This document shows positions 26,160 through 64,000 of a stretch of 64,000 bases of DNA, in pieces. The stretch's first letter is position 1, and the number at the start of each line of letters is the position of its first letter. The notes under the pieces are model-generated. The model did not search any database, was not told the origin of the DNA, and saw only the letters and a program-made list of their open reading frames with translations. The translations under genes and the position numbers were made by a program. Origin of the DNA: Prauserella halophila (lineage in GTDB: Bacteria; Actinomycetota; Actinomycetes; Mycobacteriales; Pseudonocardiaceae); NCBI RefSeq assembly GCF_024171895.1, contig NZ_JAMTCQ010000013.1, forward strand, positions 186,001 to 250,000. Direction: 5' to 3'.

Positions 26160-26189
26160 CCGCCGAATCCGATCTTTCGAGGAGTTCCC

Positions 26190-27762: not shown

Positions 27763-27787
27763 GCACATCACACCACGAGGAACCGCC

Positions 27788-35467: not shown

Positions 35468-35497
35468 GGCGTTCTCCATTCTCGACGGGCCGGCGAT

Positions 35498-37399: not shown

Positions 37400-37454
37400 A
37401 ATTTCTCCTCACGACATTGCGAGAAATTCGGTTCTTCCGCGATGGGAACAGGTC

Positions 37455-39991: not shown

Positions 39992-40020
39992 CGTTGAACA
40001 GTCCTTCGCATGCGTGGCGC

Positions 40021-48217: not shown

Positions 48218-48302
48218 CCCGGATCCCCTGACATGACCGGCGTCACATCCTTGTGAACAGACGCGATCCGCAATGCGTATCCACACCTACAAGGAGGTAG
48301 AC

Positions 48303-49598
48303 GTGCGTTCGATCGCCATCATCGGTACCGGACAAGGTGGGCTGCAGCTCGCCTTCGGCTTGCTCAGCGACGGCTATGAGGTCACGGTGTACTCCGACCG
48401 CACTCCGGAGCAGATCGCCGCCGGCCGCCTGCCTTCGAGCAACGGCCTCTTCGGACGTGCGGTCGCTCGCGAGCGCGCTCTCGACATCTGCTTCTGGGAC
48501 GGCGAGCCGCCGCTGATCGAACAGACCGATGCCAAGCTCACCGATCCCGAGGGCCACCTCGCCGTCGAGTTCACCGGCCGGTTCGCCCAGTACGGGCAGT
48601 CGGTCGACCAGCGGCTGAAGTTCAGCACCTGGCTCGAGGCGTTCGCCGGTCGCGGGGGCAAGATCGTCTACGGTGCGGTCGACCTGGCAGGCCTCGACGA
48701 GATCGCGGCGGTCAACGACCTCACGATCGTCGCCGCAGGCAAGGGCGAGATCGCAAAGATCTTCTCTGTCGACCAGACACGGACTCCCTATCAGCGCCCG
48801 CAACGCTCGATCGGCATGATCTCGCTCATCAACACCGAGCACCCGGCACCCGACGGCGTCTCCTACAACATCCGGCCCGGGATCGGTGAGGCGTTCGGAA
48901 TCCCGATGCTCACCGCGGCCGGACCGGCCGTCACCTGGGTGATGGAGGCTCTGCCCGGCGGTCCCATGGATCGCTGGTCCCAGGCCACCACGGCCGAGGA
49001 GATGCTGGAGCTGACGAAACGCACGTTCGCCGACTTCTTCCCCTGGGAAATGGCGCGCTACACCGAGGCTCACATCTCGGACCCGAACGGATGGTTGTGC
49101 GGAGCGGTACCCCCGCTGGTGCGTGAACCGATCGCCCTGCTGCCATCCGGCCGGAAGGTGGTCGGCATGGCCGACGTCCTCGTCCTCAACGACCCGTGCT
49201 GCGGTCAGGGCGCCAACAACGCGAGTACGCACGCCGAGGTCATGCATCGGCTGATCCTCGACCGTGGCTCACAACCGTTCGACGAGACCTGGATGCAGGC
49301 CACCTTCGACCGGTTCTGGGACCAGGCCCAGCATCCCACGAAGTTCACGAACACGATGCTCGCCTTCAACAACCCGGGCTCCGCCCCGCCCGAGCACGCG
49401 ATGGAGCTGCTCACCACCGCGACGCAGGTGCCGGAGGTCGCCCACCGCTTCGTCAACGCCTTCAACGACCCCTCCGACCTCGAGAACTTCTTCTACGACC
49501 CGGAGCTGACCACGCGATACCTCGCGGAGGCACGCGCACGCCACGAGTTGCGACTGCGTGGGCGCGCCGACCTGAGCTCGGTGGGAGGGAAGGGATGA
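48303..49598 (+). CDS. Second styrene/indole monooxygenase-like FAD oxygenase
   Basis: A 431-aa relative of StyA, divergent from the one at 31.9 kb. FAD motif IAIIGTGQGGLQLAFGLL (Gln where StyA has Ala), TVYSDRTPEQIAAGRLPSSN, and the late motif VLNDPCCGQGANNASTHAEV matching the GQGAN signature. I chose the GTG at 48303 because AAGGAGG lies 5 bases upstream; an in-frame ATG at 48273 is less likely. The stop overlaps the flavin reductase start (ATGA). Epoxidation of a vinyl-arene or oxidation of indole is plausible; substrate unknown. Confidence 0.86.
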   Translation: MRSIAIIGTGQGGLQLAFGLLSDGYEVTVYSDRTPEQIAAGRLPSSNGLFGRAVARERALDICFWDGEPPLIEQTDAKLTDPEGHLAVEFTGRFAQYGQSVDQRLKFSTWLEAFAGRGGKIVYGAVDLAGLDEIAAVNDLTIVAAGKGEIAKIFSVDQTRTPYQRPQRSIGMISLINTEHPAPDGVSYNIRPGIGEAFGIPMLTAAGPAVTWVMEALPGGPMDRWSQATTAEEMLELTKRTFADFFPWEMARYTEAHISDPNGWLCGAVPPLVREPIALLPSGRKVVGMADVLVLNDPCCGQGANNASTHAEVMHRLILDRGSQPFDETWMQATFDRFWDQAQHPTKFTNTMLAFNNPGSAPPEHAMELLTTATQVPEVAHRFVNAFNDPSDLENFFYDPELTTRYLAEARARHELRLRGRADLSSVGGKG

Positions 49599-50110
49599 TG
49601 ACTCTCGAGGAACGCCCGCTGCTCCCTGCAGACGACCCGCGGCATTACCGGCGCTCGCTCGGCTGCTTCCCCACCGGCATCACGGTCATGACCGCCGCGC
49701 ACGCCAGCACCCGGGTCGGGGTAACCGCGAACTCGTTCGCCTCGGTCTCGCTCGACCCGCCCCTCGTGCTGTGGGCGCTGCGGACCGACTCACCAAGCCT
49801 GTCCGTGTTCCACGACGCGAGACACTTCGCCGTGAACGTGCTCGCCTGGCACCAGGAAGACCTGTCCCGGCGCTTCGCCAAGCCGGCCGACGACAAGTTC
49901 GACGGCCTGACTCTCACCGAAGGCCTGGGCGGTGCGCCCCTGCTCGACGGGTGCGCCGCGCGGTTCGAAACCCGCATCGCACACCAGATCCCCAGCGGGG
50001 ACCACGTCCTGCTCGTCGGGGAAGTCCTGCGCTACAACAACTTCCACCGCGAGCCTCTGGTCTTCCTACGGGGCGACCATCTCTGGCTCGACCAGCCCAC
50101 CATCGGCTGA
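49595..50110 (+). CDS. Flavin reductase partner of the second StyA-like oxygenase
   Basis: A 171-aa StyB/HpaC-like reductase with FPTGITVMTA, VGVTANSFASVSLDPPLVLW, FAVNVLAWHQEDLS and GDHVLLVGEV. The first of two adjacent ATGs overlaps the oxygenase stop and follows GGAGGGAAGGG. It supplies reduced flavin to its coupled oxygenase. About 19 bases after the stop begins a truncated aldehyde dehydrogenase. Confidence 0.88.
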   Translation: MMTLEERPLLPADDPRHYRRSLGCFPTGITVMTAAHASTRVGVTANSFASVSLDPPLVLWALRTDSPSLSVFHDARHFAVNVLAWHQEDLSRRFAKPADDKFDGLTLTEGLGGAPLLDGCAARFETRIAHQIPSGDHVLLVGEVLRYNNFHREPLVFLRGDHLWLDQPTIG

Positions 50111-50129: not shown

Positions 50130-50279
50130 ATGCGAAACCAGCTCTACATCAACGGCCAGTGGCGTGCCGGCCGGGCAGGCTCGTTCCCCACCGTCGACCC
50201 CGCCGCCGGCAGAACCATCACCGAGGTCACTCACACCAGCGCCGAAGACGTCGATGACGCGCGTCGTCCGTGCCGTTGA
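50130..50279 (+). pseudogene. Aldehyde dehydrogenase truncated after 49 codons
   Basis: Begins like an intact aldehyde dehydrogenase (MRNQLYINGQWRAGRAGSFP, TVDPAAGRTITEV, SAEDVDDA) with a good ribosome site (GAGAGG), then loses similarity at DDA and stops at 50277. The next bases belong to a recombinase remnant on the other strand. The gene was probably the phenylacetaldehyde-type dehydrogenase of this oxygenase operon before an insertion removed the rest. Confidence 0.8.
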
Positions 50280-50695
50280 TCTTCTCGCGCAGCTGCGTCC
50301 GCCGCGCGATCACCGGATCGGTCCCGGCGAACACGACACCACGAACACTGTCGCCGCGCCGCGGTTCGACCAACCGATGCTCCGCGAGCTCGCCGAGAGC
50401 CGCGGTGGTGGACTCGCAGTCGCCGGTAGACCGCTTGCAGCGCGTCGGCAACCTCGACATCGCCAGCCAACGCGGTGGTATCGGTGTAGTGGCGCAGCGT
50501 CGTGTCCAACCGCCGGTGCCGCAGTCGCCGCCGCGCACGCTCGAACGGGCCCATCCCGACCAACGTGGTCGCCGCCGTGTGCCGCACCCGGTGCAAACCC
50601 GCCACCGCTCCACGTACTCGCGCCACAACGCCGTCGTCGCCGCGCTCACCGACACCCGTCCCGGCCGGTACGACTTCACCGGACCAACCACCAAC
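50255..50695 (-). pseudogene. Frameshifted tyrosine recombinase (integrase) remnant
   Basis: Segments in two minus-strand frames join into one integrase C-terminus: VKSYRPGRVSVSAATTALWR, then GLHRVRHTAATTLVGMGPFE and LRHRRLDTTLRHYTD, then VVFAGTDPVIARRTQLREKI. The HxxR...LRH(R)..TT..HY core of tyrosine recombinases is clear. At least two frame changes and a missing N-terminal catalytic region make it inactive. It abuts the cut aldehyde dehydrogenase. Confidence 0.65.
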
Positions 50696-51063: not shown

Positions 51064-51684
51064 ATGCCGAAGGTCAGTGATAGCTACAAGGACACTCGCC
51101 GCGCCGAGATCCTGGAGGCGGCGCAGCGATGCTTCTTGCGCGATGGCTTCCACGGGACCTCGATGCAGAACCTATTCGACGAGTCGGGCCTGTCATCAGG
51201 GGCCGTGTACCGTTACTTTCCGGGCAAGGAAGCGTTAATCATCGCCCTCGCCGAATACAGAATGCGCGAAACCCTCGATATCGTCCACACTGCTGCGTCG
51301 GACATACGCGGCCGGTCAATCGGCGAGATGATCACGGAGTTGATCAGCCTCCTGGGGATGCGCGATGCCAAGGACGGCTTCGCGAGGCTCGCAGTTCTGA
51401 TCTGGGCCGAGTCGGTGCACAACCAGAAGCTCAGAGAGGCACTCAGCGAGCTGTTCGCGCAACTCCGCTCCGAGTTGACCGGCATCGTTCGCAAGCACCA
51501 GCAGGCAGGCACCCTGCCTGCTGAAGTTGCCGCCGAGGCGCTGGCTGACGGGGTGTTCAGCTCACTGACCGGGTACGTCTTGCAGCTCGCTGTGCTGGGG
51601 CCTCAGTCGATCAGCGGAGCGGCGAACGCGCTACACGCGCTTTACCCGCAGACCCTGCCGGTCGATTTCACGCCAGCAGAGTAG
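51064..51684 (+). CDS. TetR-family regulator of the LLM/CoA-ligase cluster
   Basis: A 206-aa TetR-type repressor: N-terminal HTH (about residues 10-57) with RRAEILEAAQRCFLRDGFHG and GLSSGAVYRYFPGKEALI, then an all-alpha ligand domain. It sits at the left edge of the cluster, and two nearly identical motifs at 51724-51749 and 62778-62803 are the natural candidates for its operators. Acyl-CoA esters are frequent ligands in such catabolic regulons; this is inference. Confidence 0.88.
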   Translation: MPKVSDSYKDTRRAEILEAAQRCFLRDGFHGTSMQNLFDESGLSSGAVYRYFPGKEALIIALAEYRMRETLDIVHTAASDIRGRSIGEMITELISLLGMRDAKDGFARLAVLIWAESVHNQKLREALSELFAQLRSELTGIVRKHQQAGTLPAEVAAEALADGVFSSLTGYVLQLAVLGPQSISGAANALHALYPQTLPVDFTPAE

Positions 51685-51723
51685 TCCGGGTCCACCGCAA
51701 GCTCGAACCCAGACAGGTTGTTC

Positions 51724-51749
51724 AAAAAAAACGAGCATTCGTCTTGACT
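51724..51749 (+). promoter_or_regulatory. Operator/-35 motif of the rightward arm
   Basis: An A-tract followed by CGAGCATTCGTCTTGACT. The TTGACT at the end is a good -35. On the opposite strand at 62778-62803 the same motif recurs with 21 of 26 bases identical. It contains a CGA-N4-TCG dyad as a possible TetR site. Confidence 0.6.
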
Positions 51750-51803
51750 GTGGCTCCGGTCCAACATCAGACTCGCCGGTGTCGACGGCGAACGGAGCTC
51801 GAG

Positions 51804-52178
51804 ATGACTGCACTACGCGACTGCGAGCGCATGGAGTACCCGCAGCTAGCCGAGCGGGTGTCGGCCCTCGCCAAGGGACTGTCCCGAGTAGGTCTCGCCG
51901 GGTACGGCGACATGCTCGTCGTCACGTGCACCGGACATAGCGCCGATCGTGCAGTCGCGGTGTCAGCTGCCGAACGGACCGGCTTATCGGTCTCATGTCT
52001 GGATCCGGATGAGGTGGGCCTTCACGCGGCACTGCGTGCCCGTCCCACCGTCGTACTGGCCTGCCACGAGGGCAGCGCCGCGGTGGCCGCATCCCAGCTG
52101 CCATGCCGCATCTTCGGTGATCGTCCTGGAATGGCGTGGTGGCGCAGTCTCGAGCTCCTGCACAGGCTGTCGGAGTAA
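51804..52178 (+). CDS. Small protein resembling the N-terminal part of acyl-CoA ligases
   Basis: A 124-aa protein whose pattern (YPQLAERVSALAKGLSRVGL, GDMLVVTCTGHSADRAVAVS, AAERTGLSVSCLDP) follows the first subdomain of AMP-forming ligases but ends before the ATP-binding P-loop. ACGGAG precedes the ATG at 51804. It may be a truncated ligase or a retained non-catalytic domain; it has no frameshift and an intact position as first gene of the arm, ahead of the MFS gene. Confidence 0.55.
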   Translation: MTALRDCERMEYPQLAERVSALAKGLSRVGLAGYGDMLVVTCTGHSADRAVAVSAAERTGLSVSCLDPDEVGLHAALRARPTVVLACHEGSAAVAASQLPCRIFGDRPGMAWWRSLELLHRLSE

Positions 52179-52196
52179 TTCCGAAGGAGAACTGGA

Positions 52197-53540
52197 ATGA
52201 ACAACGAAGTTCGTCCCGACCCAGCTCGATCCAACACCGGCCGCCTCGGACGCGCCCAAGTCGGCATCACCGTCCTCTGCGCCCTGGTAGTACTCATCGA
52301 CGGGTTCGACACACAGGCAATCGCACTGGTCGCGCCCGATATCGCCGCAGAGTGGCAGGTACCGACCGCCACCTTCGGAGTGGTGTTCGGGGTGGGGTTG
52401 CTCGGGGGTGCCATCGGCGCCATTATCTTCGGCTGGGCCGGTGACCGGTTTGGCCGCAAACCCACAGTCCTGTTCGCGGTCGCACTTCTCGGAGTCGCCT
52501 CCTCGCTGACTCCCCTAGCCGGCTCGGTCGGCGAGCTGACATTCCTACGGCTCGTCACCGGGTTCGGCCTCGGCGGTGCGCTACCCGGGGTTATCGCAAT
52601 CACCTCCGAATACACGCCGCAGCGCCTGCGGACGGCCGTGGTCAGCATGATGTACTGCGGCTTCCCGCTGGGCGCCGTGCTGGGCGGGCTCATCACCGTG
52701 CGCATGGTGCCCGCACTCGGATGGCAGAGCGTGTTCGTGCTCGGTGGCGCCGCGCCGTTGTTGTTGCTACCGATCCTGGCCATCTGGCTGCCGGAATCGG
52801 CGCGCTTCCTCGCAGTGAAGGGCTCGACCGCGCGCCTGAACAAAGTTCTGCGTCGGACCGGTCTCGATGCTCCTCCAGAAGCGGAAGACACCGGATCCAC
52901 TGAGCACTCGTCTGTCGTCCGGCTTTTCACTGACGGGCGTGCGACGGGAACGCTGCTGATCTGGACCGCACTGTTTTTGAGCCTGCTGATGTCCTACCTG
53001 CTGATCAACTGGCTCCCCCTACTAGCGAGACAGGCAGGACTGAGCTCGACCACCGCCACGTTCGGGGTGGTTCTTCTCAACCTCGGTTCGATTATCGGCA
53101 CGATTGTGATCGGTCGACTCACAATCCGCAGCCGCCCCGCAGTCGTTGTCGGGACCGCTTTCGCCTTGGGTGCAGTGGCAATCACCGGGATCGCGTTCAG
53201 CCAACAATCGGGGACGTGGATGCTGGTCGCGGCGCTGTTCGCGGGCGGACTCAGCATCGGTGCCCAAATTTCCAGCCTCGGAATATGCGTGAACCTCTAC
53301 GACACCTCGGTCCGTGCGACCGGCGTCGGCTGGGCCGTCGGCATCGGACGCGTGGGCGGCATCGTCGGTCCGGTGGTCGGCGGGCTCCTCATCGGTGTCG
53401 GAATCAGCACACCCAACCTGTTCCTCGTCACGGCGCTGGCCTCCCTTCTCGCCGCTGCAGCCATTCTCGGTATCGCGCGGCGTCGTGCGACCACCACTGA
53501 TCACCCGGCTGCTCAACCTACGAAGGCGACGGAACGATGA
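52197..53540 (+). CDS. MFS transporter, aromatic acid:H+ symporter (AAHS) family
   Basis: A 447-aa 12-helix transporter. AAHS features: DGFDTQAIALVAPDIAAEW in helix 1, GWAGDRFGRKPTVLF after helix 2, GFGLGGALPGVIAITSEYTP and WLPESARFL. The family imports benzoate-like and other ring acids; the Asp in DGFD is needed for transport. GAAGGAG precedes the ATG. Its stop overlaps the start of the next gene (ATGA). It probably imports the substrate of the cluster. Confidence 0.9.
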   Translation: MNNEVRPDPARSNTGRLGRAQVGITVLCALVVLIDGFDTQAIALVAPDIAAEWQVPTATFGVVFGVGLLGGAIGAIIFGWAGDRFGRKPTVLFAVALLGVASSLTPLAGSVGELTFLRLVTGFGLGGALPGVIAITSEYTPQRLRTAVVSMMYCGFPLGAVLGGLITVRMVPALGWQSVFVLGGAAPLLLLPILAIWLPESARFLAVKGSTARLNKVLRRTGLDAPPEAEDTGSTEHSSVVRLFTDGRATGTLLIWTALFLSLLMSYLLINWLPLLARQAGLSSTTATFGVVLLNLGSIIGTIVIGRLTIRSRPAVVVGTAFALGAVAITGIAFSQQSGTWMLVAALFAGGLSIGAQISSLGICVNLYDTSVRATGVGWAVGIGRVGGIVGPVVGGLLIGVGISTPNLFLVTALASLLAAAAILGIARRRATTTDHPAAQPTKATER

Positions 53541-54475
53541 CCCCCAACGGAATGCCTGTCGGGGTGATCGGCCTGGGAGGGATGGGAACGGCGTACGCTC
53601 GCCGACTGCTGGGGCGCGGATTCCCAGTCTTGGGCTTCGACATCGCAGAAGGAGCACGCGAGCGCCTGCACGCCGCAGGCGGCATAGTGGCCCGTAACGG
53701 GTCGGAAGTGGCTTCGCAATGCGAGGTTGTGCTGACGGCAGTGGACACGGTGACTGCCTTCGATTCCGTGGTCGACGAGATCCTGTCCAGTCGCGGAACA
53801 GGGTGGGTTATCGACACGAACACCGTCTCGCGCAGACAGAAGGAGCGCGTACGCCAAGCCCTGGCACGGGTGGGCTGGTCGATGCTGGACTGCACGGTGA
53901 GTGGCAGTCCGGCGATGGTCCTCAACGACACGTACAGCTTCTTCGTGAGCGGCGGCGTCGACTCCACGTGTTGCGTCGGACGGGTGATCGACTGTCTCGC
54001 CTCGAAGGTCTTCGATCTGGGCGAGTTCGGCAACGCAAGCACTATGAAGCTGATCATCAACCATTTGTTGATGGTCCATAACGCCGCAGCGGCAGAGGCT
54101 ATGAGCCTGGGGCGCAAAGCCGGACTGCCGCCGTCCTTGATCTACGACGCGGTCACGTCGAGTGGCGGCTCGTCCCGGATGTTCGAGATCCGCGGCAAGG
54201 CGATGGCAGAAGACCGCCATCCGGCTGGAACTGCCTTGGAGCTGCTGGTTGACAAGGATGGCGTCGCGATCGCCGACCTCGCCCGATCACTACGTCACCC
54301 CGCGCCCGTGTTCGCCGCTGCCTACCAGGCCCACATGATCGGGCTGGCGCAAGGCTGGGGAAGCCTGGACCCCAGCGCGATGTCCGCGGTGTACGAGTCA
54401 CTGTCCGGCCAACGCCCACTCGGCCCTACCGCGGCCGACCTCGACGAAACGCCCGCAGCGGAAGAGACACCATGA
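53537..54475 (+). CDS. 3-hydroxyisobutyrate dehydrogenase-family oxidoreductase
   Basis: A 312-aa NAD(P)-dependent beta-hydroxyacid dehydrogenase. It has the Rossmann motif VGVIGLGGMGTAYARRLL, the substrate motif DCTVSGSPAM (usual DAPVSGG), and the catalytic Lys in GNASTMKLIINHLL. Coupled to the transporter by an ATGA overlap. Relatives oxidise 3-hydroxyisobutyrate, tartronate semialdehyde or sulfolactaldehyde, and some reduce glyoxylate. In this cluster it could oxidise a hydroxy-acid intermediate. Confidence 0.86.
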   Translation: MTPNGMPVGVIGLGGMGTAYARRLLGRGFPVLGFDIAEGARERLHAAGGIVARNGSEVASQCEVVLTAVDTVTAFDSVVDEILSSRGTGWVIDTNTVSRRQKERVRQALARVGWSMLDCTVSGSPAMVLNDTYSFFVSGGVDSTCCVGRVIDCLASKVFDLGEFGNASTMKLIINHLLMVHNAAAAEAMSLGRKAGLPPSLIYDAVTSSGGSSRMFEIRGKAMAEDRHPAGTALELLVDKDGVAIADLARSLRHPAPVFAAAYQAHMIGLAQGWGSLDPSAMSAVYESLSGQRPLGPTAADLDETPAAEETP

Positions 54476-55582
54476 ATCGGTCATGGGAGGCCGCCATGGC
54501 GTGAGAAAGCCATGCTGATTGGTGACTCCTCGGAGATTCGCGCGGCAGCTGCGGCCGTTCAGTCGGTGTCGCCGTTGCGGGCTGTTCTACGTCCGCAACG
54601 GCGACACCGGCACACTCAGTGGAGGTCAGGGACCAGAGCGCGATCACTGCGCTGGCCGCGGGTCACGATGCCCGCCACGGCCGCCTGAGGTTGTATTGCC
54701 CAGCAGGTGTCCTGTGCAGACAGTTCGGAACCGGCGGCCTCTGGGCCCCGGGGATCCCTAGTCGTGACCTGGGAGCAAAGCCGGCCGTGCCGTGTTCGGG
54801 TCGGCCCCGATACGATCGCCCCGGTTCAGGACCGGCGTCGTTATTCGGCCGCCGGGGTCGCCGTGGTGATTGCCCGAACGACGTAGGTGGAGCCGTGGTC
54901 GATCGGAGATCGTGCGGCAATCCAGGCGTGGGTGTGTGATTCGGCCCGCTCCATCGCGGATGAGCACGACCGCGGCGAGAGTCATGAACAGGCTGAGCAT
55001 CGACTCGCCGAGAACGCTGACGCATGCGTCGGCGTCACCGACCGAACCGATCAGGGTCGCGAGTCGTTGCAGCGCAGAGTTTTCGGTGTATCGCACCGAG
55101 GTGAATTCGAAGGCGGAAACGTCGCCAGTATCGAGCGGGATTTGGACTGCGGTCCTGACACAGCCCCAGCCTGCACACTCCCGACCGTCACCCGGAAACA
55201 GAGGATGGCCGGTTCTCGGGGTCTGGCTGCGCCGTTCCCGCGGCCTTTCGTGGCTCCTGATCGGGGGCTGTAGCTGCGCTGTTTCCAGTCCCGATAGGTC
55301 CGCTCTGCGACCCGTACGCCCGCTCGCGCGGAACCGCGCAGATCGACCCGACCCAGCGACCAGAGGCCCGATGCTCCGCGATGAATCCGGGAATCACCAC
55401 TGGCAGAGGCCGGGCTCCGCCACGTCCCTCGGGATTGCGTTCGCCTGCGTAGCTCTCGCGGTGCCGGCGCACGAGCGCGGGCCGATGCGTTCGGACTCGG
55501 CCGCGTGTGAAACCGGCACGGTCGCCGCAGTCACGGCATCTCACACCGAGGACGGTTCAACCTTGTTCCCGCGGCTCCACGG
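54476..55582. other. 1.1 kb between convergent arms, no gene recognised
   Basis: Frames up to 243 codons (54870-55601 plus) and several minus-strand frames exist, but they are Arg/Ser/Pro-rich, overlap each other and carry no motif. A minus-strand stretch near 54960-55096 (LGESMLSLFMTLAAVVLI) could be a membrane-segment relic. I see no clear terminator. The region may hold decayed mobile DNA. Confidence 0.45.
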
Positions 55583-55936
55583 TCACGGTTCGGGCCCATA
55601 GACCAGTACGAGCAGCCCGGCATGGGTTCGAATGAGGGCTCGGTACTCGTGTCCTCCACTGTGGATCGGACCGACCAGATCCGCCCCACCGTCGAGAAGC
55701 GGGGCGATCGCGGTCCCGACGCGATCAGTCTTCGCCGTCAGGACCAGCTCGCCGGGAGCCGGATGATCCTCCGGGCCGGCGAGTGCTACCCCTAGGTTCG
55801 CCGACGACGGGTCAAGCGCTGCATACCGATTCCCGTCACGGAACTCCACGGTGGTGGACAGCGCCGCGAGGTCGTCGATCATCGCGTCCATCTCGGGGGC
55901 AGTGACTAGCACGTTCTTCAGCTGCAACCGGGTCAT
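55583..55936 (-). CDS. VOC/glyoxalase-fold small protein
   Basis: A 117-aa single-domain protein with the strand pattern of the vicinal-oxygen-chelate fold: LKNVLVTAPEMDAMIDDLAA, VEFRDGNRYAALDP, HPAPGELVLTAKTD and LLVLVYGPEP. The usual metal-binding His/Glu set is not obvious, so it may bind ligand without catalysis. Its ATG overlaps the flavin reductase stop (ATGA); it is the last gene of the leftward arm. Confidence 0.65.
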   Translation of the reverse strand: MTRLQLKNVLVTAPEMDAMIDDLAALSTTVEFRDGNRYAALDPSSANLGVALAGPEDHPAPGELVLTAKTDRVGTAIAPLLDGGADLVGPIHSGGHEYRALIRTHAGLLVLVYGPEP

Positions 55937-56442
55937 GCCGCGCGCTCCGGCTCGAGGAGAGACCGGAATCGGCTGCGATGGAACACGAGCGGCGCCGTGT
56001 CGGCAGTGGTTTCCAGTCGCTCGATCTCGAGCAGCACGATCACGTGGTCCCCAGCGTCCAACTCGGCATGCATGCGACAATCGAGCCAGGCGACGGCTCC
56101 GTTGAGGAACACCGCTCCAGTTTCCGACGCCGTCCAGGCCAGGTTCACGAACCTGTCTCCGCTTCTGGCCGACAGCGACCGACACGCCGCCTCCTGCCCG
56201 GAGGCGAGAATGCTGACCCCGAGCTTGTGCCGGGATCGTAGCCGCGGCCACGTCGTCGACGACTTCTGCACGCAGACCGACACCAGCGGTGGCTCCAATG
56301 AGACGCCCGTGAAGGCGCTCGCCGCCATTCCATCCGGACCGCTGGGACCCTGCGTGCACAACGCCGTCACGCCGGTCGGGAAGCTTCCGAAGGTGGTGCG
56401 GATCTCACGCTCGTCAAGCTGGCTGACAGATTGCATTCCCAT
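55933..56442 (-). CDS. Flavin reductase for the LLM monooxygenase
   Basis: A 169-aa HpaC/StyB-like flavin reductase: FGSFPTGVTALCTQ, MAASAFTGVSLEPPLVSVCV, LGVSILASGQ and GDHVIVLLEIERLE. GAGGAGG precedes the ATG at 56442, 20 bases after the ligase stop. It should deliver reduced FMN to the luciferase-like monooxygenase at the head of the same operon, as in two-component Baeyer-Villiger and desulfurising systems. Confidence 0.87.
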   Translation of the reverse strand: MGMQSVSQLDEREIRTTFGSFPTGVTALCTQGPSGPDGMAASAFTGVSLEPPLVSVCVQKSSTTWPRLRSRHKLGVSILASGQEAACRSLSARSGDRFVNLAWTASETGAVFLNGAVAWLDCRMHAELDAGDHVIVLLEIERLETTADTAPLVFHRSRFRSLLEPERAA

Positions 56443-56461
56443 GGCGACCTCCTCCGCTCGA

Positions 56462-58021
56462 TCAATGGATCTTGCGCTCAAGTCCGGTCCAGTAGTGATC
56501 TCGCAGTTCGCGCTTGAGCACCTTGCCCGCGGAGCTGCGCGGCAAGCTTCCGGTGATATCGACGCGTTTGGGGGTCTTGACGCTGCCGAGCCGGTCCTTG
56601 CACAGGGCGATAATCTCGTCCTCCGTGATCTGCGCGCCGCTGTTGAGCTCCAAGACTGCGGTGACCCGCTCACCCCAGTCTTCGTCGGGGATTCCGATGA
56701 CCGCGCAGTCCTGGACCGCCGGATGACCCCAGATGACCTGCTCGATCTCCTGCGGATAGATGTTCAAGCCACCGGAAATGATCATGTCTTTCTTGCGGTC
56801 GACCAAGTGTAGTCTGCCACCACCATCGAGCCAGCCGACGTCGCCGGTGTGCAGCCAACCACCGACGAGGGTCACGGCGGTGGTCTGCTCATCCCGGTAA
56901 TAGCCAGGGGTCACCATGTCACCGCGTATGCACACTTCGCCGGGCTCACCGCTGGGCACCTCATGGCCGGCGTCGTCGAGGATCTTCAGTTCGATGAACG
57001 GCGTCGGGTATCCGCAGCTGGTCAGGACCTCGTCCGGCGCGATCTCACCGTCCACCCAATGATCCTGTGGGGCCAACCACGTGCACATAGCCGGTGCCTC
57101 GGACTGGCCGAAGAACTGCGCCATACACGGGCCGAAGACCGTCAGTGCCCGTTTGAGCTTGTCCAGTGACATCGGGGCAGCGGCGTAGGCGAAGTACCGG
57201 ACCGAGCTGAAGTCCCGCTCCTCGATGCCCGGGTGGTCGAGCATCCGATACACCACAGTGGGCGGCAGAAAGAACTCCGTGACCCTGTGGGTCTCGATGG
57301 TGTCGAGCATCAGCCCGACGTCGGCGCCGGGGAGGATGACGACCGAACCCCCGCGGGCGAGCGCGGCCAACGACATCATCCCCGCTGCGTGGGTGAGCGG
57401 CGCCGCCACCATGACCACGGGCCGCTCGCCGGCCTCATACGTGAAACTCACCATGTAGCCGGCGAGGAAGTTGTAGAGCACGCGCTGTGTCAGCATGACG
57501 CCCTTGGACCGGCCCGTGGTTCCGCCGGTCGGCATGAGGACCGCCAGGTCCTCCCGGTCGCTGGGCAGATCGAGCGGGGTCGCATCCGCGCCCGCCAGCC
57601 ACTGTTCCAGCGACGGGATGTCGCCGATCTCTTGGTCGAGGCACACCAGGAGCTTCAGGCCCGGAAGCTCCGCACGGAGTTTGTCCACCATTTCCCGGTA
57701 TCCACTGTGGAAGAACAGCACGGTGCACTCGAACTGGCCGAGCACGTGGCGGGTGTCGTCGAACGCACTGTTCGGGTTCGCCGGAATCCACGTGACATTG
57801 GCGCGGTGGAAACCGAAGGCGCACAAGAAGGACACCGCGCTGTTGGTCGACAACACAGCCGCATGCGTGCCCGGACCGTGGCCAAGCGCGCGGAGCGTGT
57901 TGGCCACGCGATAGGTGAAGACCTGTGCCTCACGGTAGGTCCAGCTGCGATCTCCGTCGACCATGCACTGCTCGTCCGCGCCGTAGGTCGCGCCACGGTC
58001 TAGGAAGTGGGTGAACAACAT
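56462..58021 (-). CDS. AMP-forming acyl/aryl-CoA ligase
   Basis: A 519-aa member of the adenylate-forming family that makes CoA thioesters from a carboxylic acid, ATP and CoA. P-loop PTGGTTGRSKGVML, FFGQSEAPAM, YYRDEQTTAV, GWLHTGDVGWLDGGGRLHLV and the C-terminal Lys region SLPRSSAGKVLKREL are all intact. The thiolase and two crotonases upstream work on CoA esters, so this ligase probably activates the ring acid or its cleavage product. The exact acid is unknown. Confidence 0.9.
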   Translation of the reverse strand: MLFTHFLDRGATYGADEQCMVDGDRSWTYREAQVFTYRVANTLRALGHGPGTHAAVLSTNSAVSFLCAFGFHRANVTWIPANPNSAFDDTRHVLGQFECTVLFFHSGYREMVDKLRAELPGLKLLVCLDQEIGDIPSLEQWLAGADATPLDLPSDREDLAVLMPTGGTTGRSKGVMLTQRVLYNFLAGYMVSFTYEAGERPVVMVAAPLTHAAGMMSLAALARGGSVVILPGADVGLMLDTIETHRVTEFFLPPTVVYRMLDHPGIEERDFSSVRYFAYAAAPMSLDKLKRALTVFGPCMAQFFGQSEAPAMCTWLAPQDHWVDGEIAPDEVLTSCGYPTPFIELKILDDAGHEVPSGEPGEVCIRGDMVTPGYYRDEQTTAVTLVGGWLHTGDVGWLDGGGRLHLVDRKKDMIISGGLNIYPQEIEQVIWGHPAVQDCAVIGIPDEDWGERVTAVLELNSGAQITEDEIIALCKDRLGSVKTPKRVDITGSLPRSSAGKVLKRELRDHYWTGLERKIH

Positions 58022-58050
58022 CGTCGTTGCCTCCTTGGCTAATGGTCCGT

Positions 58051-59295
58051 CTACGCCCCTGGAGCGGAGAAGATGGCGACAGTCGCCGCAGCCTCCTCGA
58101 CGCCGAAAATCCCGCCGCCGTTCTCGAGTACCGCGTGGCGTGCGCCGTCGACCTGCCGCTCATCGGCGCGGCCCCGCAGCTGCATCACGAGTTCATGCGT
58201 CTGGGCGAGTCCCGTCGCGGCTATCGGGTGTCCTCGTGACTCCAGTCCGCCCGATACGTTGATCGGGATCGAGCCACCGAGCGTGGTTTCCCCCCGCTCC
58301 GCGGCGAGACCCCCCTCTCCCCGACGCGCCAGCCCCAGATTCTCCGCGTGCAACAACTCGCCGAACGCGGTCGCGTCGTGGAGTTCCGCCACGTTCATCT
58401 CGCCGGGCCCGAGACCGGCTACCTCGTACGCGCGGTCCGCGGTCAACTTGGTGATGTGACGATCCCAGTCGTGCGCATCGCGGTCGACTCCGGATGCGAG
58501 CTCTAGCGCTGCGATTGTCACGGCCTGACCGGTCGCCCCGAGTGCGCGGGCCTTATCCGCCGAGCACACGAGCACCGCGGCTGCGCCGTCGGAGTAAGGC
58601 GAGCACATCGGCACGGTGAGCGGATATGCCAGCGGCCGGGCGGCGAGCACTTCGTCGATCCGGAACTCTTTCTGAAAGTGGCAGTTCGGATTGAAGGTCG
58701 AGTGATAGTGATTCTTCGACGATATCGCCGCCAGCTGAGCCTGCGTCGAGCCGAAGTCGTGCATGTGCGCGCGAGCCCAGAAGCCGTAGATGTCCATGAA
58801 GATCGAGCGGTCGCCCTCGACTTCCAGTACTGTGTCGTCGCCTGCGAGGTCTCGCAACGCCAGGAGGACCCCCTCCCGGTCGTGTACGTCCATGCCCCCT
58901 TCGAACAACGCATCGCGGCGCGCGGAGTCGTCCGTGGACAGCTTTTCGGCACCAACGGCCATGACGCAATCGGCCAGGCCCGCCTTGACATGGGCCCAAG
59001 CGAGGTGGAGTGCCGTCGTGCCAGAGGCGCACGCATTCTCCGTGTTGACGATGGGCACACCCTCGAACCCCAGTGGCCGCACGGCCATCTGGCCCGGGTT
59101 CGCTGTTTGGCCCTCGATCAGCCCCTGACCGACATTGGCGAAGAACAGGGCTCCAACATCCGCCGCCTCGGCCCCTGCGTCATCCAGACAGGTTGTGATG
59201 GCCTCGGCTGTCATGGCTTTGACACTGCGGTCTGGGAAGACGCCGAAGTGGGTCATCCCGACACCGACGATGTAGACACGGTCCGCGTTCACCAT
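58051..59295 (-). CDS. Thiolase-family acetyl-CoA acyltransferase (SCP-x type)
   Basis: A 414-aa thiolase of the lipid-transfer/SCP-x type. Nucleophile Cys in NTENACASGTTALHLAW, His in GGLESRGHPIAATG, and NGGGIFG at the place of the second Cys motif. The ATG at 59295 follows GAGGTG. It should release acetyl-CoA or propionyl-CoA from a 3-ketoacyl-CoA in the last step of the cluster. SCP-x-like thiolases are common in steroid and terpenoid side-chain breakdown. Confidence 0.88.
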   Translation of the reverse strand: MVNADRVYIVGVGMTHFGVFPDRSVKAMTAEAITTCLDDAGAEAADVGALFFANVGQGLIEGQTANPGQMAVRPLGFEGVPIVNTENACASGTTALHLAWAHVKAGLADCVMAVGAEKLSTDDSARRDALFEGGMDVHDREGVLLALRDLAGDDTVLEVEGDRSIFMDIYGFWARAHMHDFGSTQAQLAAISSKNHYHSTFNPNCHFQKEFRIDEVLAARPLAYPLTVPMCSPYSDGAAAVLVCSADKARALGATGQAVTIAALELASGVDRDAHDWDRHITKLTADRAYEVAGLGPGEMNVAELHDATAFGELLHAENLGLARRGEGGLAAERGETTLGGSIPINVSGGLESRGHPIAATGLAQTHELVMQLRGRADERQVDGARHAVLENGGGIFGVEEAAATVAIFSAPGA

Positions 59296-59305
59296 GGCAG
59301 TCACC

Positions 59306-60097
59306 TCATCGTCCGACGAAGCGTGCCGGCCGGCGCTCGTGGAACGCGGCATTGCCCTCGGCCCGGTCCTCGGAGTGCGCCAGATCAGCGAAGGAGTTGA
59401 CCTCCAGCCGGACCGCCTCGTTCAAGCTGAGTCCTGCGGAACGCCGCGCCACGTCCTTCATATAGCGTTGCGCGAGCGGGCCGCGAGTGGCCAGCACTTC
59501 GGCGAAACGCAGGGTCTCCGCGACCAGATCGGCCTGCGGGATGATCCGGTTGACCAGCCCGATCCGCAGCGCGTGCTCGGCGCCGATGCGGTCGCCGGAG
59601 AGGATGATCTCCATCGCGTTGCCCAGACCGACGATGTGCGGCAACCGCACGCAGCCGCCGTCACACGGGTGCATGCCCCGATTGACATCGTGAATCGCGA
59701 ACACCGCATCCGGCGCGCAAAAGCGGATGTCCGTGGCGAGGGCCAGCTCGAGGCCACCCGAGATCGCGTACCCATTGATGGCGGAAATGATCGGCTTGGT
59801 CACGCGAAGTCCGCGGGTGATGCCTCCGAACCCGTAGCCGTCGACGAAGCGCTCCCGGAAGTACGGTGCGGGCTCACCCACGTAGCGTGGGGAGAACGTC
59901 TTCAGGTCGGCACCGGAGCAGAACGCCCCGTCGGCGCCAGTCACGACGGCGACACGGAGCGTCTCGTCCGCCTGAAACTCGGTGAAGGCCGCAATGAGCG
60001 CCTCATTCGCCTCGTAGTCGAGGGCGTTCCTCTTCTCCGGGGCATTCACGGTGATGAGCAATACGGCGCCGGTGCGCTCGGTCAGTACGGCAGACAT
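59306..60097 (-). CDS. Enoyl-CoA hydratase/isomerase (crotonase) family protein 1
   Basis: A 263-aa crotonase. Oxyanion-hole motifs are AFCSGADLKTF and INGYAISGGLELALATDIRF; GMHPCDGG and the IVGLGNAMEIILSGDRI helix follow. The start at 60097 has GGGAAGG 6 bases upstream. It shares most of its sequence with the next gene upstream, pointing to tandem duplication, and lies 2 bases from it. Hydration, isomerisation or C-C hydrolysis are all possible in this family. Confidence 0.85.
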   Translation of the reverse strand: MSAVLTERTGAVLLITVNAPEKRNALDYEANEALIAAFTEFQADETLRVAVVTGADGAFCSGADLKTFSPRYVGEPAPYFRERFVDGYGFGGITRGLRVTKPIISAINGYAISGGLELALATDIRFCAPDAVFAIHDVNRGMHPCDGGCVRLPHIVGLGNAMEIILSGDRIGAEHALRIGLVNRIIPQADLVAETLRFAEVLATRGPLAQRYMKDVARRSAGLSLNEAVRLEVNSFADLAHSEDRAEGNAAFHERRPARFVGR

Positions 60098-60099
60098 CG

Positions 60100-60897
60100 T
60101 CACCTTCCCTTGAACGTAGCGGGGCGCTTCTCAGCGAACGAGGCGTAGCCTTCTCGGAGGTCCTCGGTATCAGCGAGATCCCGGAACGAGCGCGTCTCCA
60201 TACGCAACGCCTCGTCCAGGTTCATTCCGATCGCGCTGCGGATGACGTCCTTGGCGAACCGCTGGGCGAGCGGAGCCCTGGTTGCGAGCCGCTCCGCGAA
60301 CTCGAGCGTCCGCTCGAGCAGTTCATCCTGCGGGAACACGCGGTTCACGAGACCGATGCGCAAAGCGTGCGCAGCGTCGATCCGCTCTCCGGACAGGATC
60401 AGCTCCATCGCGTTGCCATGCCCTACGACGTGCGGCAGCCGGATGCTCCCGCCGTCGCAGGAGTGAAAGCCCCAATTGACGTCCTGCAGACCGAATATGG
60501 CGGTATCCGTACAAAAACGGATGTCGGCGGCCAGGGCCAACTCGAGCCCACCCGAAAGGCAGTAGCCGTTGATCGCCGTGACGACCGGCTTGGTGCCGGA
60601 GAAGTTCCGGGTGATACCACCGAATCCGGGACCGTCCGTGTACTCCACCCGGAAGTCGGCGCTCGACTTTCCGTCGAGGTACCGGCGCGGGTAATCGGTC
60701 ATGTCGGCGCCGGCACAGAAGGCTTTGTCCCCCGCACCCGTGAGCACGGCGACATAGGCGTCGGCGTCCGCCTCGAACTCATCGAAGGCCTCGATCAACT
60801 CCTGGTTGGTGTCATAGTCGAGGGCGTTCATCTTCTCCGGCCGGTCGATCGTGAGGATCGTTACCCGCCCTCGGCTTTCCTTGAGGATCTTGGACAT
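60100..60897 (-). CDS. Enoyl-CoA hydratase/isomerase (crotonase) family protein 2
   Basis: A 265-aa crotonase with AFCAGADMTDY and INGYCLSGGLELALAADIRF, then GFHSCDGGSIRLPHVVG. Paralogue of its neighbour; retention of both suggests two different substrates or a mixed trimer. GAGGAGG precedes the ATG at 60897, 5 bases after the hydrolase stop. Neither copy shows the clear Glu pair of classical enoyl-CoA hydratase in the usual context, so ring hydrolase activity as in 6-oxocamphor hydrolase should be considered. Confidence 0.85.
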   Translation of the reverse strand: MSKILKESRGRVTILTIDRPEKMNALDYDTNQELIEAFDEFEADADAYVAVLTGAGDKAFCAGADMTDYPRRYLDGKSSADFRVEYTDGPGFGGITRNFSGTKPVVTAINGYCLSGGLELALAADIRFCTDTAIFGLQDVNWGFHSCDGGSIRLPHVVGHGNAMELILSGERIDAAHALRIGLVNRVFPQDELLERTLEFAERLATRAPLAQRFAKDVIRSAIGMNLDEALRMETRSFRDLADTEDLREGYASFAEKRPATFKGR

Positions 60898-60902
60898 CGT
60901 GC

Positions 60903-61667
60903 TCACACCTCCTCGAGGAACCCGGTGAGGAGCGCCTCGAACGTTCGTGGGTCGTCGATCATCGGGAAATGGCCGCATCCTGGCAGCACCTCGACACGGC
61001 CACCGGGCAGCAGCCGGCGGAACTCCTCGAGGCAGTCGATGGACGGTCCGTCCGCGCCGAGCACCGCCATGGCCGGGACCGCCAACCGCGACATCGCCTC
61101 TACCAGATCGTAGTCCCGCACCGCCCACAGGATGTCGACCATGGAATGCACGCCTGCCTTCTGCCGGTCGACGTTCCATCGGTGAAACAACTCGGGCGTG
61201 AGCTCGCGAAACCGGGGAGCGACGGTATCGAACGGCTGGACGAGTTCGGCGAACATGCTCTCTATCCAGTCCCAGTTATCGGCCCACCACTGCTGCGGAC
61301 GCAACTGGGTGTCGATGATGATCGCCTTATCAACACGCTCCGAGAAGCTCGCTCCCAGCTCGACGGCCAGCGTACCGCCGATAGAGCAACCGGCGACGCT
61401 CGTCCGCTGCACACCGAGCTGGTCGAGCAAGGCGATGGCTGCGCGCGCGTGGTCGTGCACGCTCAGGTGTCGGGTGTGAGGAGCGGAATCGCCGTGCCCG
61501 ATCAGGTCCCAGACAATCACCCTACGGTTGCCGGCCAGCCGCTCGACGTTGTCGTCGAATTCGTGCAGCGACGTGCCGCCGGAATGCGCAAGCAGCAACG
61601 TCGGCCCGGCGCCGTGATCGACGTAGTGGACGCGGCCGTACTCGGTTTCCACGAAACCCTCGCCCAT
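60903..61667 (-). CDS. Alpha/beta hydrolase
   Basis: A 254-aa serine hydrolase: oxyanion strand LLLAHSGGTSLHEF, IVWDLIGHGDS, nucleophile elbow GCSIGGTLA, a late acid in VLGADGPSIDC, and the His in GCGHFPMIDDP. Close in plan to lactone or C-C-bond hydrolases of catabolic clusters. Its ATG shares one base with the LLM stop, and GGAGATGAC precedes it. A lactone made by a Baeyer-Villiger-type monooxygenase would be a fitting substrate; this is inference. Confidence 0.86.
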   Translation of the reverse strand: MGEGFVETEYGRVHYVDHGAGPTLLLAHSGGTSLHEFDDNVERLAGNRRVIVWDLIGHGDSAPHTRHLSVHDHARAAIALLDQLGVQRTSVAGCSIGGTLAVELGASFSERVDKAIIIDTQLRPQQWWADNWDWIESMFAELVQPFDTVAPRFRELTPELFHRWNVDRQKAGVHSMVDILWAVRDYDLVEAMSRLAVPAMAVLGADGPSIDCLEEFRRLLPGGRVEVLPGCGHFPMIDDPRTFEALLTGFLEEV

Positions 61668-62686
61668 CAGTCATCTCCCAAGTGCGGCATGACCTGTTCG
61701 GCAAAAGTACGTAGCGAGTCGGGCTCCGCGCTGAAGTCGGCGAGTAGGACGTAGTCGACGCCCAGATCCTCCAGCACCTTCAGCCTCTTGACGACGTCCT
61801 CCGGGTAGCCGATCAAGGCGGCCTCGTCGGCCACAGCCTCCTCGGCTGTGCCAGTGGGCAGGTTCCCCCGCTCGGTGAACGAGGCCCACCTGGTCCCGGT
61901 CTGCGCGCCGAGCGCGTCGAGCTGACGGGCCCGATCGGCATGTGCGCGGCGGAGATCCTCGTCGTTGTCAACCAGGCGCAGGGCCCGGTTCACCGCCACG
62001 CTCTGCGGAGGTACCACGTTCCCCGCCTCGGCCGCGGCCTCGCTGTACTGCGCGATTCGCGTACCGATCAGATCGGGGGCGGCGATCTGATCCAGCAGCA
62101 GCCGGTGCCCGTTCCGGCCGGCCTTCACGGTCGATGCCTCACTGGTGGCACCGACCCAGATCGGTGGGCGTGGGGTCTGGGAGGGCGCCGGGTCGATGAC
62201 GATGTCGTCGAACTCCCAAAACTCCCCCCGGTGGTCGAACCGTTCCCGGGTCGACCAGGCCTGTTTGCAGAACGCGAGAATCTCCTCATAACGAGCCGCA
62301 GCCTCATCCGGCGAGATTCTGAACCCGGCGAACTCGTGGGGGCGGTAGCCCTTACCGACGCCGAAGTCGAATCGACCACCCGAGAGCTGGTCAATCGTGG
62401 CGATCTGCTCGGCGAGCAGGACAGGATTGTGCCAAGGCAGCACGACCACCGAGGTGCCGAGCCGAATCGTCGAGGTCCTCCCGGCGAGATAGGCCAGCAC
62501 CGACAGTGACGAGGACACTTGTCCGTTGCCAGTGAAGTGGTGCTCGACCAGGAAGACACTGTTGAACCCCAGCGCCTCAGCTTCGCAGATGTAGTCGCCG
62601 AAGGTTTGCAAGTTCTGCGCCGACGCAAAGCCCTTGGCTCCCGCACGACTCCCGGCTGAGACGTCCGTCATCAGTCCGAACTTCAT
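61667..62686 (-). CDS. LLM-class (luciferase-like) flavin-dependent monooxygenase
   Basis: A 339-aa TIM-barrel flavoprotein of the bacterial luciferase family: FLVEHHFTGNGQVSSSL, RLGTSVVVLPWHNPVLLAEQ, GGRFDFGVGKGYRPHEFAGF and PIWVGATSEASTVKAGRNGH. The ATG at 62686 follows GGAGGTG. With the flavin reductase of the same operon it forms a two-component system; Type II Baeyer-Villiger enzymes (diketocamphane monooxygenases) and alkanal monooxygenases belong here. It heads the leftward arm, whose promoter carries the shared operator motif. Confidence 0.88.
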   Translation of the reverse strand: MKFGLMTDVSAGSRAGAKGFASAQNLQTFGDYICEAEALGFNSVFLVEHHFTGNGQVSSSLSVLAYLAGRTSTIRLGTSVVVLPWHNPVLLAEQIATIDQLSGGRFDFGVGKGYRPHEFAGFRISPDEAAARYEEILAFCKQAWSTRERFDHRGEFWEFDDIVIDPAPSQTPRPPIWVGATSEASTVKAGRNGHRLLLDQIAAPDLIGTRIAQYSEAAAEAGNVVPPQSVAVNRALRLVDNDEDLRRAHADRARQLDALGAQTGTRWASFTERGNLPTGTAEEAVADEAALIGYPEDVVKRLKVLEDLGVDYVLLADFSAEPDSLRTFAEQVMPHLGDD

Positions 62687-63610
62687 GGGTTGACACACCT
62701 CCACATCGAGTCGGTGTCAATGCCGAGCCCTTCCCGAACAGCCCGACCTAGCCCACCCTCCTCCCTCGTGCAGCTCAAGTCAAGACGAACATTCCTTCTT
62801 TTTCGCTCGCCTGAGCTCATCGCTCTCGCGATGGGCTACCTGGCGCACCGGACAGCTCCAGCGGCACCCGCGTCCCCGTGCACGCACAACCGGCCTCTTC
62901 CCGGGAGCTCCGAGAAGGGGCCCGAAGCTCTCTGCGAACCGGTTACCATCCTTTTCGGACAATCAACACGCACGGAAAGGCTCCACGGTCCTATCCGCGG
63001 GACTACGCCACGTCTGCGGGTCGTGTCCACGATCCTCGGACAAGCCCGCCCCGTGCTCACGCCACATTCAACATCAGGGACTCTCGGAGTCCGGAGCTTC
63101 GACCGGACGCCTTGCGGCGTCACCGTGTTCGGCTACCTGCTCACGTGCGCCGAGGCTGGCGCCAGTGCCACCGTGGCGCTCGCGCCCGGAACCCGCATGC
63201 CTTCAGTCTCCCTCCGCCGGCCGAGGTCTCCAGCAAGGCCGCTCAGGGCCGGCCTCGTGGTGTAGAGTTCGTCCGGTCCAATATGGCGAGGCGCCGCAGC
63301 TGCCGCCCTCGAACCGATGCGCTGATCCGAGATCAGAGAACACGCCACCGGTACCTATCAGTGGAGATACCAGCGTGGTGCGAGTCGTAGTGCGAACTGG
63401 TGGCGACAGCGGATTCAATGGCCCGTGGTGCGAGAACCGCAGCACTGAAATCGCTGGTCAGCATGCCAACGTGGTCGATACGGCAGTCTTCTCATCTCTG
63501 GGTAGCAGGTGCGATGCGTGCCGGACTCCCCGAAACACCTACATGAACCCGAGGGGACGCGGTGCAACCATTGCCTGAACCAGCGGCAGGAAGGCACGGC
63601 TGAAACGCCG
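62687..63610. other. Upstream region of the leftward arm, otherwise empty
   Basis: Holds the promoter and operator of the LLM operon at its left end. Beyond about 62.85 kb I see only short overlapping frames without motifs and a small hairpin GGACTC-TCG-GAGTCC near 63078-63092. It leads into the IS481-type remnant. Confidence 0.45.
62778..62803 (-). promoter_or_regulatory. Operator/-35 motif of the leftward arm
   Basis: Read on the minus strand it is an A-rich tract followed by GGAATGTTCGTCTTGACT, sharing 21 of 26 bases with the motif at 51724-51749, including an identical TTCGTCTTGACT. It lies 91 bases upstream of the LLM start codon. Confidence 0.6.
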
Positions 63611-64000
63611 TCCGTCTCGCCTGCGACGACTGTGCTCAGACGCCCAACGTACGGGTCGACAGCCGCTACTGTTGGCGGACGGAACCGATCTCGCTTGCGA
63701 GCCGAGCTCGTCGCGCGTTGCCAGACTCGCCCGATCGCCCATACTGCCGCCGAGATGGGCATCTCCCGCCAATGCGCGAGTAAGTGGTCAACCGTCACCG
63801 CTGCTTCGGCAATGCGGGGCTGCTCGACCGCCCGAACGCCCCGCACGATCAGCCCACCGCCACTACGGCCGAGGTGGTGGCCCGGATCGAGCAGCTCCGC
63901 CGGCAACGGAAGTACTCCGCCCGCAGGATCGCCACCGAACTGGCCGCCGAGGGCATCACGATCTCGGTCCGCACCGTCGGCCGCCGGCTGCTGGAGCCCG
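63611..64000 (+). pseudogene. IS481-type transposase, frameshifted and cut by the window end
   Basis: One frame gives RNRSRLRAELVARCQTRPIA and EMGISRQCASKW. The homologous continuation VNRHRCFGNAGLLDRPNAPH, then RIEQLRRQRKYSARRIATEL and SVRTVGRRLLEP, lies in another frame. Restoring one G in the run at about 63784-63788 would join them as SKWVNRH, the usual IS481 sequence. The N-terminal HTH half is visible and the DDE core would lie beyond the window. The frameshift suggests an inactive copy unless it is a sequencing error. Confidence 0.7.

Follow-up and report, generated by a model that had tools for sequence, protein, structure and literature searches.

According to the available text of two reports (PMC9836352, PMC12239570), few luciferase-like monooxygenases (LLMs) have been characterised as Baeyer-Villiger enzymes. 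In Sphingobium sp. AntQ-1, an LLM gene and a contiguous alpha/beta hydrolase gene are upregulated on 9,10-anthraquinone, with the highest transcripts per million among the upregulated genes, and the accessible part of that study proposes, from transcripts and metabolites, a type II Baeyer-Villiger monooxygenase (BVMO) whose oxidation would precede hydrolysis of the lactone (PMC9836352). In Caenibius tardaugens, LLM EGO55_13860 of the pdc cluster converts progesterone to testosterone acetate, as stated in the available portion of the report (PMC12239570), and RslO1 was inferred to form an epoxide in the available excerpt of another (PMC8093152). The accessible part of a fourth paper (PMC13101518) gives its LLM genes by expression only and has no bearing on the present cluster. 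Here we analysed a 64,000-nucleotide stretch of Prauserella halophila (contig NZ_JAMTCQ010000013.1, positions 186,001 to 250,000; hereafter the window, whose numbering is used unless stated otherwise), in which an LLM gene lies within a two-armed gene cluster at 51064-62803. Our results lean, by a little, towards this gene set being a TetR-controlled catabolic regulon with the general logic of oxygen insertion, hydrolysis and coenzyme A (CoA)-dependent shortening.

The gene content was established by open reading frame (ORF) listing, translation, and Pfam and NCBIfam domain searches. These recovered every gene that an initial annotation had placed at 51064-62803, all with open frames: a TetR gene and two converging arms that hold, besides TetR, ten enzyme or transporter genes, the VOC-like one being identified through its relatives. 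The plus arm comprises, in order, TetR, a 124-aa ORF, an AAHS transporter and a 3-hydroxyisobutyrate dehydrogenase (3HIBDH)-like enzyme. The minus arm runs from the LLM through the hydrolase, crotonase A, crotonase B, an SCP-x thiolase, a CoA ligase and a flavin reductase to the VOC-like protein. Its eight genes share one direction, are separated by at most 29 bases or overlap by 1-4, and have the CoA genes placed between the LLM and the flavin reductase. Between the converging arms lies a 1.1-kb stretch (54476-55582); its ORFs looked spurious by eye.

In support of common control, a 26-base operator/-35-like motif stands at the 5' end of each arm. Copy 1, AAAAAAAACGAGCATTCGTCTTGACT, lies at 51724-51749 on the plus strand, 54 bases before the ORF that starts at 51804, and copy 2, AAAAAGAAGGAATGTTCGTCTTGACT, at 62803-62778 on the minus strand, 91 bases before the LLM start. 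The copies are identical at 21 of 26 positions, as the initial annotation had claimed; their last 12 bases form an unbroken identical run, to which none of the earlier bases belongs, and the 3' end is TTGACT, a -35-like hexamer. When the two upstream stretches were shuffled by mononucleotide 2000 times, no shuffle reached this level of identity; among 1985 random stretch pairs drawn from the window, one did, a chance estimate that refers to a single pair. Moreover, no further 26-mer site was found at up to 9 mismatches within the 64-kb window, or at up to 8 mismatches in the 63,909-base genomic island described below. Genome-wide, the 12-base core occurred at 38 sites with at most one mismatch, counting both copies, and the reversed control at 22; 7 of the 36 other core sites were compared with the full 26-mer, and the best had 9 mismatches. 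A sigma-70-type promoter scan returned 1 site, against 1.1 expected, and that site was not at the motif. The motif pair and its uniqueness in the island support a single regulon-like unit under a common motif. The TetR/BetI-type regulator (51064-51684, plus strand, 206 aa; PF00440 at E 1.3e-14, and PF13977), whose best relative among the plasmid matches listed is 33% identical, is presumably the repressor of both arms and would bind the twin motif.

The LLM itself (61667-62686, minus strand, 339 aa; Pfam/NCBIfam) is, by model, fold comparison and sequence, an LLM-fold oxygenase of the kind found in type II BVMOs. The separate flavin reductase of such systems has its counterpart in a PF01613 protein of the same operon (55933-56442, minus strand, 169 aa; E 3.4e-39; 126.5 of 230 bits with an HsaB-like model), presumably the donor of reduced flavin mononucleotide (FMNH2) for the LLM. 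Note that the fold comparison, which covered Foldseek's top 1000 chains, separates neither FMN from F420 enzymes nor BVMO from epoxidase. The LLM could be read as an F420-dependent oxidoreductase beside a flavin reductase that serves another enzyme. We consider this very improbable: the flavin reductase belongs to the LLM operon, the neighbouring StyA-like gene has its own (49595-50110), and the nearest solved sequences to the LLM are luciferase-type enzymes. First among these was RslO1 (E 1.6e-30), with 3,6-diketocamphane monooxygenase far weaker (E 5e-7). An enzyme working in the manner of RslO1 or MsnO8 would epoxidise or hydroxylate an aromatic or unsaturated substrate, and the hydrolase would then have as its substrate an ester or thioester at another point of the pathway, an alternative that we regard as unlikely in the light of the hydrolase.

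This alpha/beta hydrolase (60903-61667, minus strand, 254 aa; 121 of 256 bits with the PcaD model) has a serine nucleophile in GCSIG, and the Ser is kept in the GCSIG, GASVG and GASIG motifs of the three members aligned. Alpha/beta-fold epoxide hydrolases use an Asp nucleophile. We therefore rejected an epoxide-hydrolase role; no alpha/beta-fold epoxide hydrolase accompanies the LLM, which argues against epoxidation, and the protein is presumably an ester or lactone hydrolase. In addition, the LLM and this hydrolase recur together in two other places, and a serine hydrolase close to an LLM there fits ester or lactone formation better than epoxidation. One is a 5-kb contig (G1001:C223) of an actinobacterium from another class of the phylum, where an LLM (50% identical) and the hydrolase (44%) share a strand and are separated by 0.6 kb, alongside TetR-like and MFS-like frames (by eye) and a weak match to a crotonase start (30 aa, E 4e-4). 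The other is a Paracoccus plasmid, in which a 40% identical hydrolase directly adjoins an LLM and a flavin reductase follows two genes on; that LLM belongs to another branch (24% to the cluster LLM). A weak hydrolase match (22-34%, E <= 1e-5) was also found beside the LLM in 8 of 52 LLM-relative loci, downstream in seven and upstream in one; four of the eight are not independent, because they are of Binatia type with near-identical layout.

Some of the same material weighs against Baeyer-Villiger chemistry. In G1001 a TetR-like frame on the opposite strand separates the LLM from the hydrolase, and because of it we lowered our confidence slightly, from just short of even; the short contig also differs from our cluster in having no ligase, thiolase or flavin reductase. 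A Baeyer-Villiger type insertion beside a carbonyl would still be our tentative reading of the LLM, held at somewhat below even confidence.

The comparison with AntQ-1 gave a similar mixture. Taking sphantq_4473 and sphantq_4474 by their order as RS22575 and RS22580 of plasmid pANTQ-1, we found the LLM followed by the hydrolase and then by MFS and TetR genes. However, the AntQ-1 LLM is only 29% identical, its hydrolase has no match to the cluster hydrolase at E 0.01, and no crotonase, SCP-x thiolase or AMP-binding ligase adjoins them in the plasmid stretch viewed. In our tree the AntQ-1 LLMs fell in another starred clade than the cluster LLM; the deep forks of this tree are unsupported and the diketocamphane enzymes lie outside its sample. 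The pdc cluster likewise places an LLM Baeyer-Villiger enzyme within a small regulated catabolic set, but has a separate BVMO as partner, and the available part of the report mentions neither a flavin reductase nor a hydrolase or CoA module linked to it (PMC12239570).

The initial annotation had also recognised a likeness to camphor catabolism without its P450. The CAM plasmid camphor cluster carries P450cam and an OTEMO-type BVMO. Neither a P450 nor a flavin adenine dinucleotide (FAD)-type BVMO domain was found among the proteins of both arms by Pfam and NCBIfam, which upholds the missing P450. The likeness to the camphor pathway holds only for the combination of LLM, flavin reductase and CoA ligase; it fails for the P450, the FAD-type BVMO and the LLM sequence. 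We rejected a camphor-type cluster, since the arms have neither domain and the LLM is far nearer to RslO1.

The CoA genes form the second half of the minus arm's chemistry. They encode an acyl/aryl-CoA ligase (56462-58021, minus strand, 519 aa; PF00501 and PF13193; PDB matches FadD8 and feruloyl-CoA synthetase), an SCP-x-type thiolase (58051-59295, minus strand, 414 aa; PF22691 and PF00108; PDB match SCP2-thiolase type 1 at E 7e-62) that keeps the Cys and His motifs of its family, and two crotonases. Among 397 genomes of the order searched, six others had the thiolase at E <= 1e-90, and in four of these it adjoined the ligase; the two genes also lay in the same cluster in all five plasmids opened, which are the top hits of a concatenated-protein query and a biased sample. 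In these plasmids, from Rhodococcus, Burkholderia and Porphyrobacter (L063-L067), the thiolase is 43-55% and the ligase 33-49% identical, and the two genes are adjacent or a few genes apart, with a crotonase in four of the five clusters. They differ from our cluster in carrying a short-chain dehydrogenase/reductase (5/5) and an acyl-CoA dehydrogenase (4/5), and in having no match to the cluster LLM or hydrolase at E <= 1e-5. In one of them (L064), genes for aromatic ring-hydroxylating dioxygenase lie about 9 kb from the ligase/thiolase cluster. Ligase, enoyl-CoA hydratase and thiolase of beta-oxidation are thus present in the arms; acyl-CoA and 3-hydroxyacyl-CoA dehydrogenases are absent from both by Pfam and NCBIfam.

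The crotonases, ECH_A (60100-60897, minus strand, 265 aa; PF00378 at E 1e-61) and ECH_B (59306-60097, minus strand, 263 aa; E 3e-55), are 59% identical to each other, and relatives at E <= 1e-70 were found in their own genome only among 150 genomes of the family. In both, the first catalytic Glu is retained, and Asp stands where 3-hydroxypropionyl-CoA dehydratase (5zai) has the second, the two positions being numbered Glu144/Glu164. Of ten other crotonases aligned, several have Glu at the second position and several have other residues. This change permits altered crotonase chemistry and does not demonstrate it. The Asp may parallel Asp154 of 6-oxocamphor hydrolase; the literature search gave no paper on that enzyme and nothing decisive on the role of the crotonases. 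A bolder version would be a new ring-cleavage pathway in which the LLM acts as a Baeyer-Villiger enzyme beside its own lactonase, and the tandem crotonases, converted from hydratases by the Glu-to-Asp change, as retro-Claisen C-C hydrolases, a cyclic keto acid thus being opened two times with no P450 or type I BVMO; we hold this to be quite improbable.

The AAHS-family (aromatic/related acid:H+) MFS transporter (52197-53540, plus strand) scored 352.7 bits with TIGR00895, whose cut-off is 418.6, and matched PF07690. The 3HIBDH-like protein (53537-54475, plus strand) is a beta-hydroxyacid dehydrogenase with PF03446 and PF14833 and PDB matches 3g0o and 3cky; its best NCBIfam model was L-threonate dehydrogenase, at 161 of 350 bits. 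The 124-aa ORF (51804-52178, plus strand), absent from the initial annotation, has an N-terminal match to PF00501 (E 5e-4, below the cut-off) and is possibly a remnant of the N-terminus of an AMP-binding ligase; it had no relative in the plasmid collection at E 0.01 and no similarity to the minus-arm CoA ligase at E 10.

The VOC-like protein (55583-55936, minus strand, 117 aa) had no Pfam match of its own at E 0.01, and PF00903 was present in three of the four relatives tested, the Novosphingobium one giving no match. It is 35% identical to an annotated VOC protein of plasmid p2MP of Arthrobacter 68b, on which an LLM (26%), a flavin reductase (30%) and this VOC relative lie within about 10 kb. 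The plasmid is associated with a pyridine pathway, and these genes speak for a cleavage of an N-heterocycle or amide, of the Rut or pyridine kind, by LLM, flavin reductase and hydrolase. Against it, the arms contain no amidase, amidohydrolase, isochorismatase or succinate-semialdehyde dehydrogenase, the hydrolase is nearest to PcaD models, and the cluster LLM stands apart from the Arthrobacter LLM in the tree, where the deep forks are weak. This alternative seems to us highly unlikely; the literature search on pyridine gave nothing decisive. The Rut pyrimidine set combines RutA and RutF with RutB, an isochorismatase, RutC and RutE. A Rut-type cluster was rejected, as no RutB, RutC or RutE was found among the arms' proteins.

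Taken together, the best account is that oxygen insertion and hydrolysis follow or precede CoA activation and thiolytic shortening. In this scheme, for which we infer the step order, the type of oxygen insertion and the substrate, the AAHS transporter would import a carboxylic acid; the LLM, with FMNH2 from the operon's flavin reductase, would insert one oxygen beside a carbonyl in Baeyer-Villiger fashion; and the serine hydrolase would open the lactone or ester so formed. The CoA ligase would activate an acid, and the paired crotonases would hydrate the CoA ester or, given the Glu-to-Asp change, hydrolyse it. The SCP-x thiolase would then release a short acyl-CoA, and a hydroxy-acid fragment would be oxidised by the beta-hydroxyacid dehydrogenase. 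TetR, bound to the twin motif, would repress the two arms until the substrate or its CoA ester releases it. Of the pathway type proposed earlier, the genes for oxygen insertion and CoA-dependent chemistry of the beta-oxidation type stand, and ring opening stays hypothetical. So does an alicyclic or terpenoid substrate; relatives of the modules also occur near aromatic-pathway genes, and RslO1 was inferred to form an epoxide. We consider such a substrate rather doubtful, one option beside aryl-alkyl ketones, keto acids and quinones.

We next turned to the distribution of the cluster, using genome searches that are samples of class, order, family and phylum. At E <= 1e-60 the LLM was found in its own genome only among 394 of the class, and at E <= 1e-50 in its own and two others among 397 of the order; in the stretch fetched from both of these order relatives, the hydrolase was missing beside the LLM. 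In the class of G1001 the LLM was present at E <= 1e-60 in 2 of 66 genomes, and the hydrolase at E <= 1e-40 in its own genome and G1001 among 396 of the phylum. A genome-contig scan, which works on short exact peptides and missed the G1001 type, gave the 52 LLM relatives mentioned above, with best full-length matches of 41-46%; a Bradyrhizobium contig from a metagenome-assembled genome (L007) carries an LLM relative with an in-frame stop in the matched stretch. Among the matches listed, a plasmid search with the concatenated proteins found no record covering 80%. Conserved synteny did not emerge, as the sampled genomes and plasmids held no whole-cluster match, and the view that no identical cluster has been characterised held in the sampled genome, plasmid and literature searches; no publication on the whole gene set was found among open-licence papers. 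The modules are known, and the combination of LLM, flavin reductase and alpha/beta hydrolase with CoA ligase, SCP-x thiolase and crotonases beside an AAHS transporter looks new.

A new combination could also have arisen from two unrelated pathways, the oxygenation and CoA modules, joined by island mosaicism and sharing a promoter through duplication. In favour of this, at the loci examined the relatives of one module stand without those of the other, the searches gave no match to the whole cluster, and integrase- and transposase-like remnants were seen by eye in the island. However, the eight co-directional minus-strand genes are tightly packed, with the CoA genes between the LLM and the flavin reductase, and G1001 has the LLM, the hydrolase and perhaps a crotonase start within 4 kb. 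We judge this origin improbable and keep to a single regulated unit.

Finally, the cluster proved to lie at the left end of a genomic island of 63,909 bases. The LLM was missing at E <= 1e-50 in all six other genomes of the genus. In two of these congeners (G368 and G544), a 96% DNA identity ends at 50142, which sets the left junction at 50142..50143 (C6:236142 in the numbering of the contig). The first 291 bases past the break in G368 correspond to C6:300052-300340 here (86% identical), so that the right junction lies near C6:300051 and a 63.9-kb segment is present here and absent at the site in the two relatives. A 103-base direct repeat (94%) occurs at 50260..50362 and at the island's right end, just inside which two frames resembling, by eye, pieces of a tyrosine integrase were seen. 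Absence from relatives, defined junctions and repeats mark this segment as a genomic island. The absence in all six congeners favours gain over loss, and the segment was probably gained horizontally. G368 and G544 diverge from each other about 280 bases past the junction, showing that the site is variable. ARAGORN found an intact tRNA-Met (CAT) gene at about C6:323300-323375. A 67-base stretch here (C6:323280-323346), made of 47 bases of the tRNA-Met 3' end and 20 beyond, has copies of 89-93% identity at the junction of the relatives; it also falls inside the 86% match at the right junction (about C6:300157-300224), and part of it is repeated at 23708-23770 (63 bases). Since copies lie at several places of the contig, the aromatic gene region to the left may itself be an older island.

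By eye, the start of an aldehyde-dehydrogenase-like frame at 50131-50270 spans the left junction and ends after about 45 residues, and a transposase-remnant-like frame runs from 63784-64000 onward. To the right of the cluster the island carries a second catabolic set (C6:250227-265109; L089 2227-17109), with an LLM (31% to the cluster LLM), a DctM-type TRAP transporter, a phosphotriesterase-family protein, a RibB-like protein, an ADP-forming CoA ligase, crotonase-like and TetR-like frames and an acyl-CoA dehydrogenase; a second flavin reductase (37%) lies at C6:265282-265716. Outside the island, just left of the cluster, a StyA-like gene (48273-49598) is 98% identical in G368 and G544. It is the second of two StyA-like styrene/indole monooxygenase genes (31922-33262 and 48273-50110) that score below the NCBIfam cut-off, and it comes with a flavin reductase of its own. 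Further left are homoprotocatechuate-type meta-cleavage genes (34070-43963), with HpaD and HpaE above NCBIfam cut-offs, an FAA-hydrolase/RraA fusion and a phenol 2-monooxygenase-family enzyme. Two P450s lie 22 kb left of the cluster (24969-28987; best PDB match 6g71, next GcoA-type aromatic O-demethylases), with a ferredoxin reductase between them, an MFS gene after and LysR and AraC regulators flanking. Because this aromatic neighbourhood has its own regulators, it does not fix the substrate of the cluster. If our account is true, P. halophila would possess, on an island and under regulation, a route linking oxygen insertion by an LLM with CoA-dependent shortening, and would offer an LLM with a candidate partner hydrolase for assay. 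It would also be a case of catabolic genes of this genus collecting at a variable, tRNA-Met-linked site.

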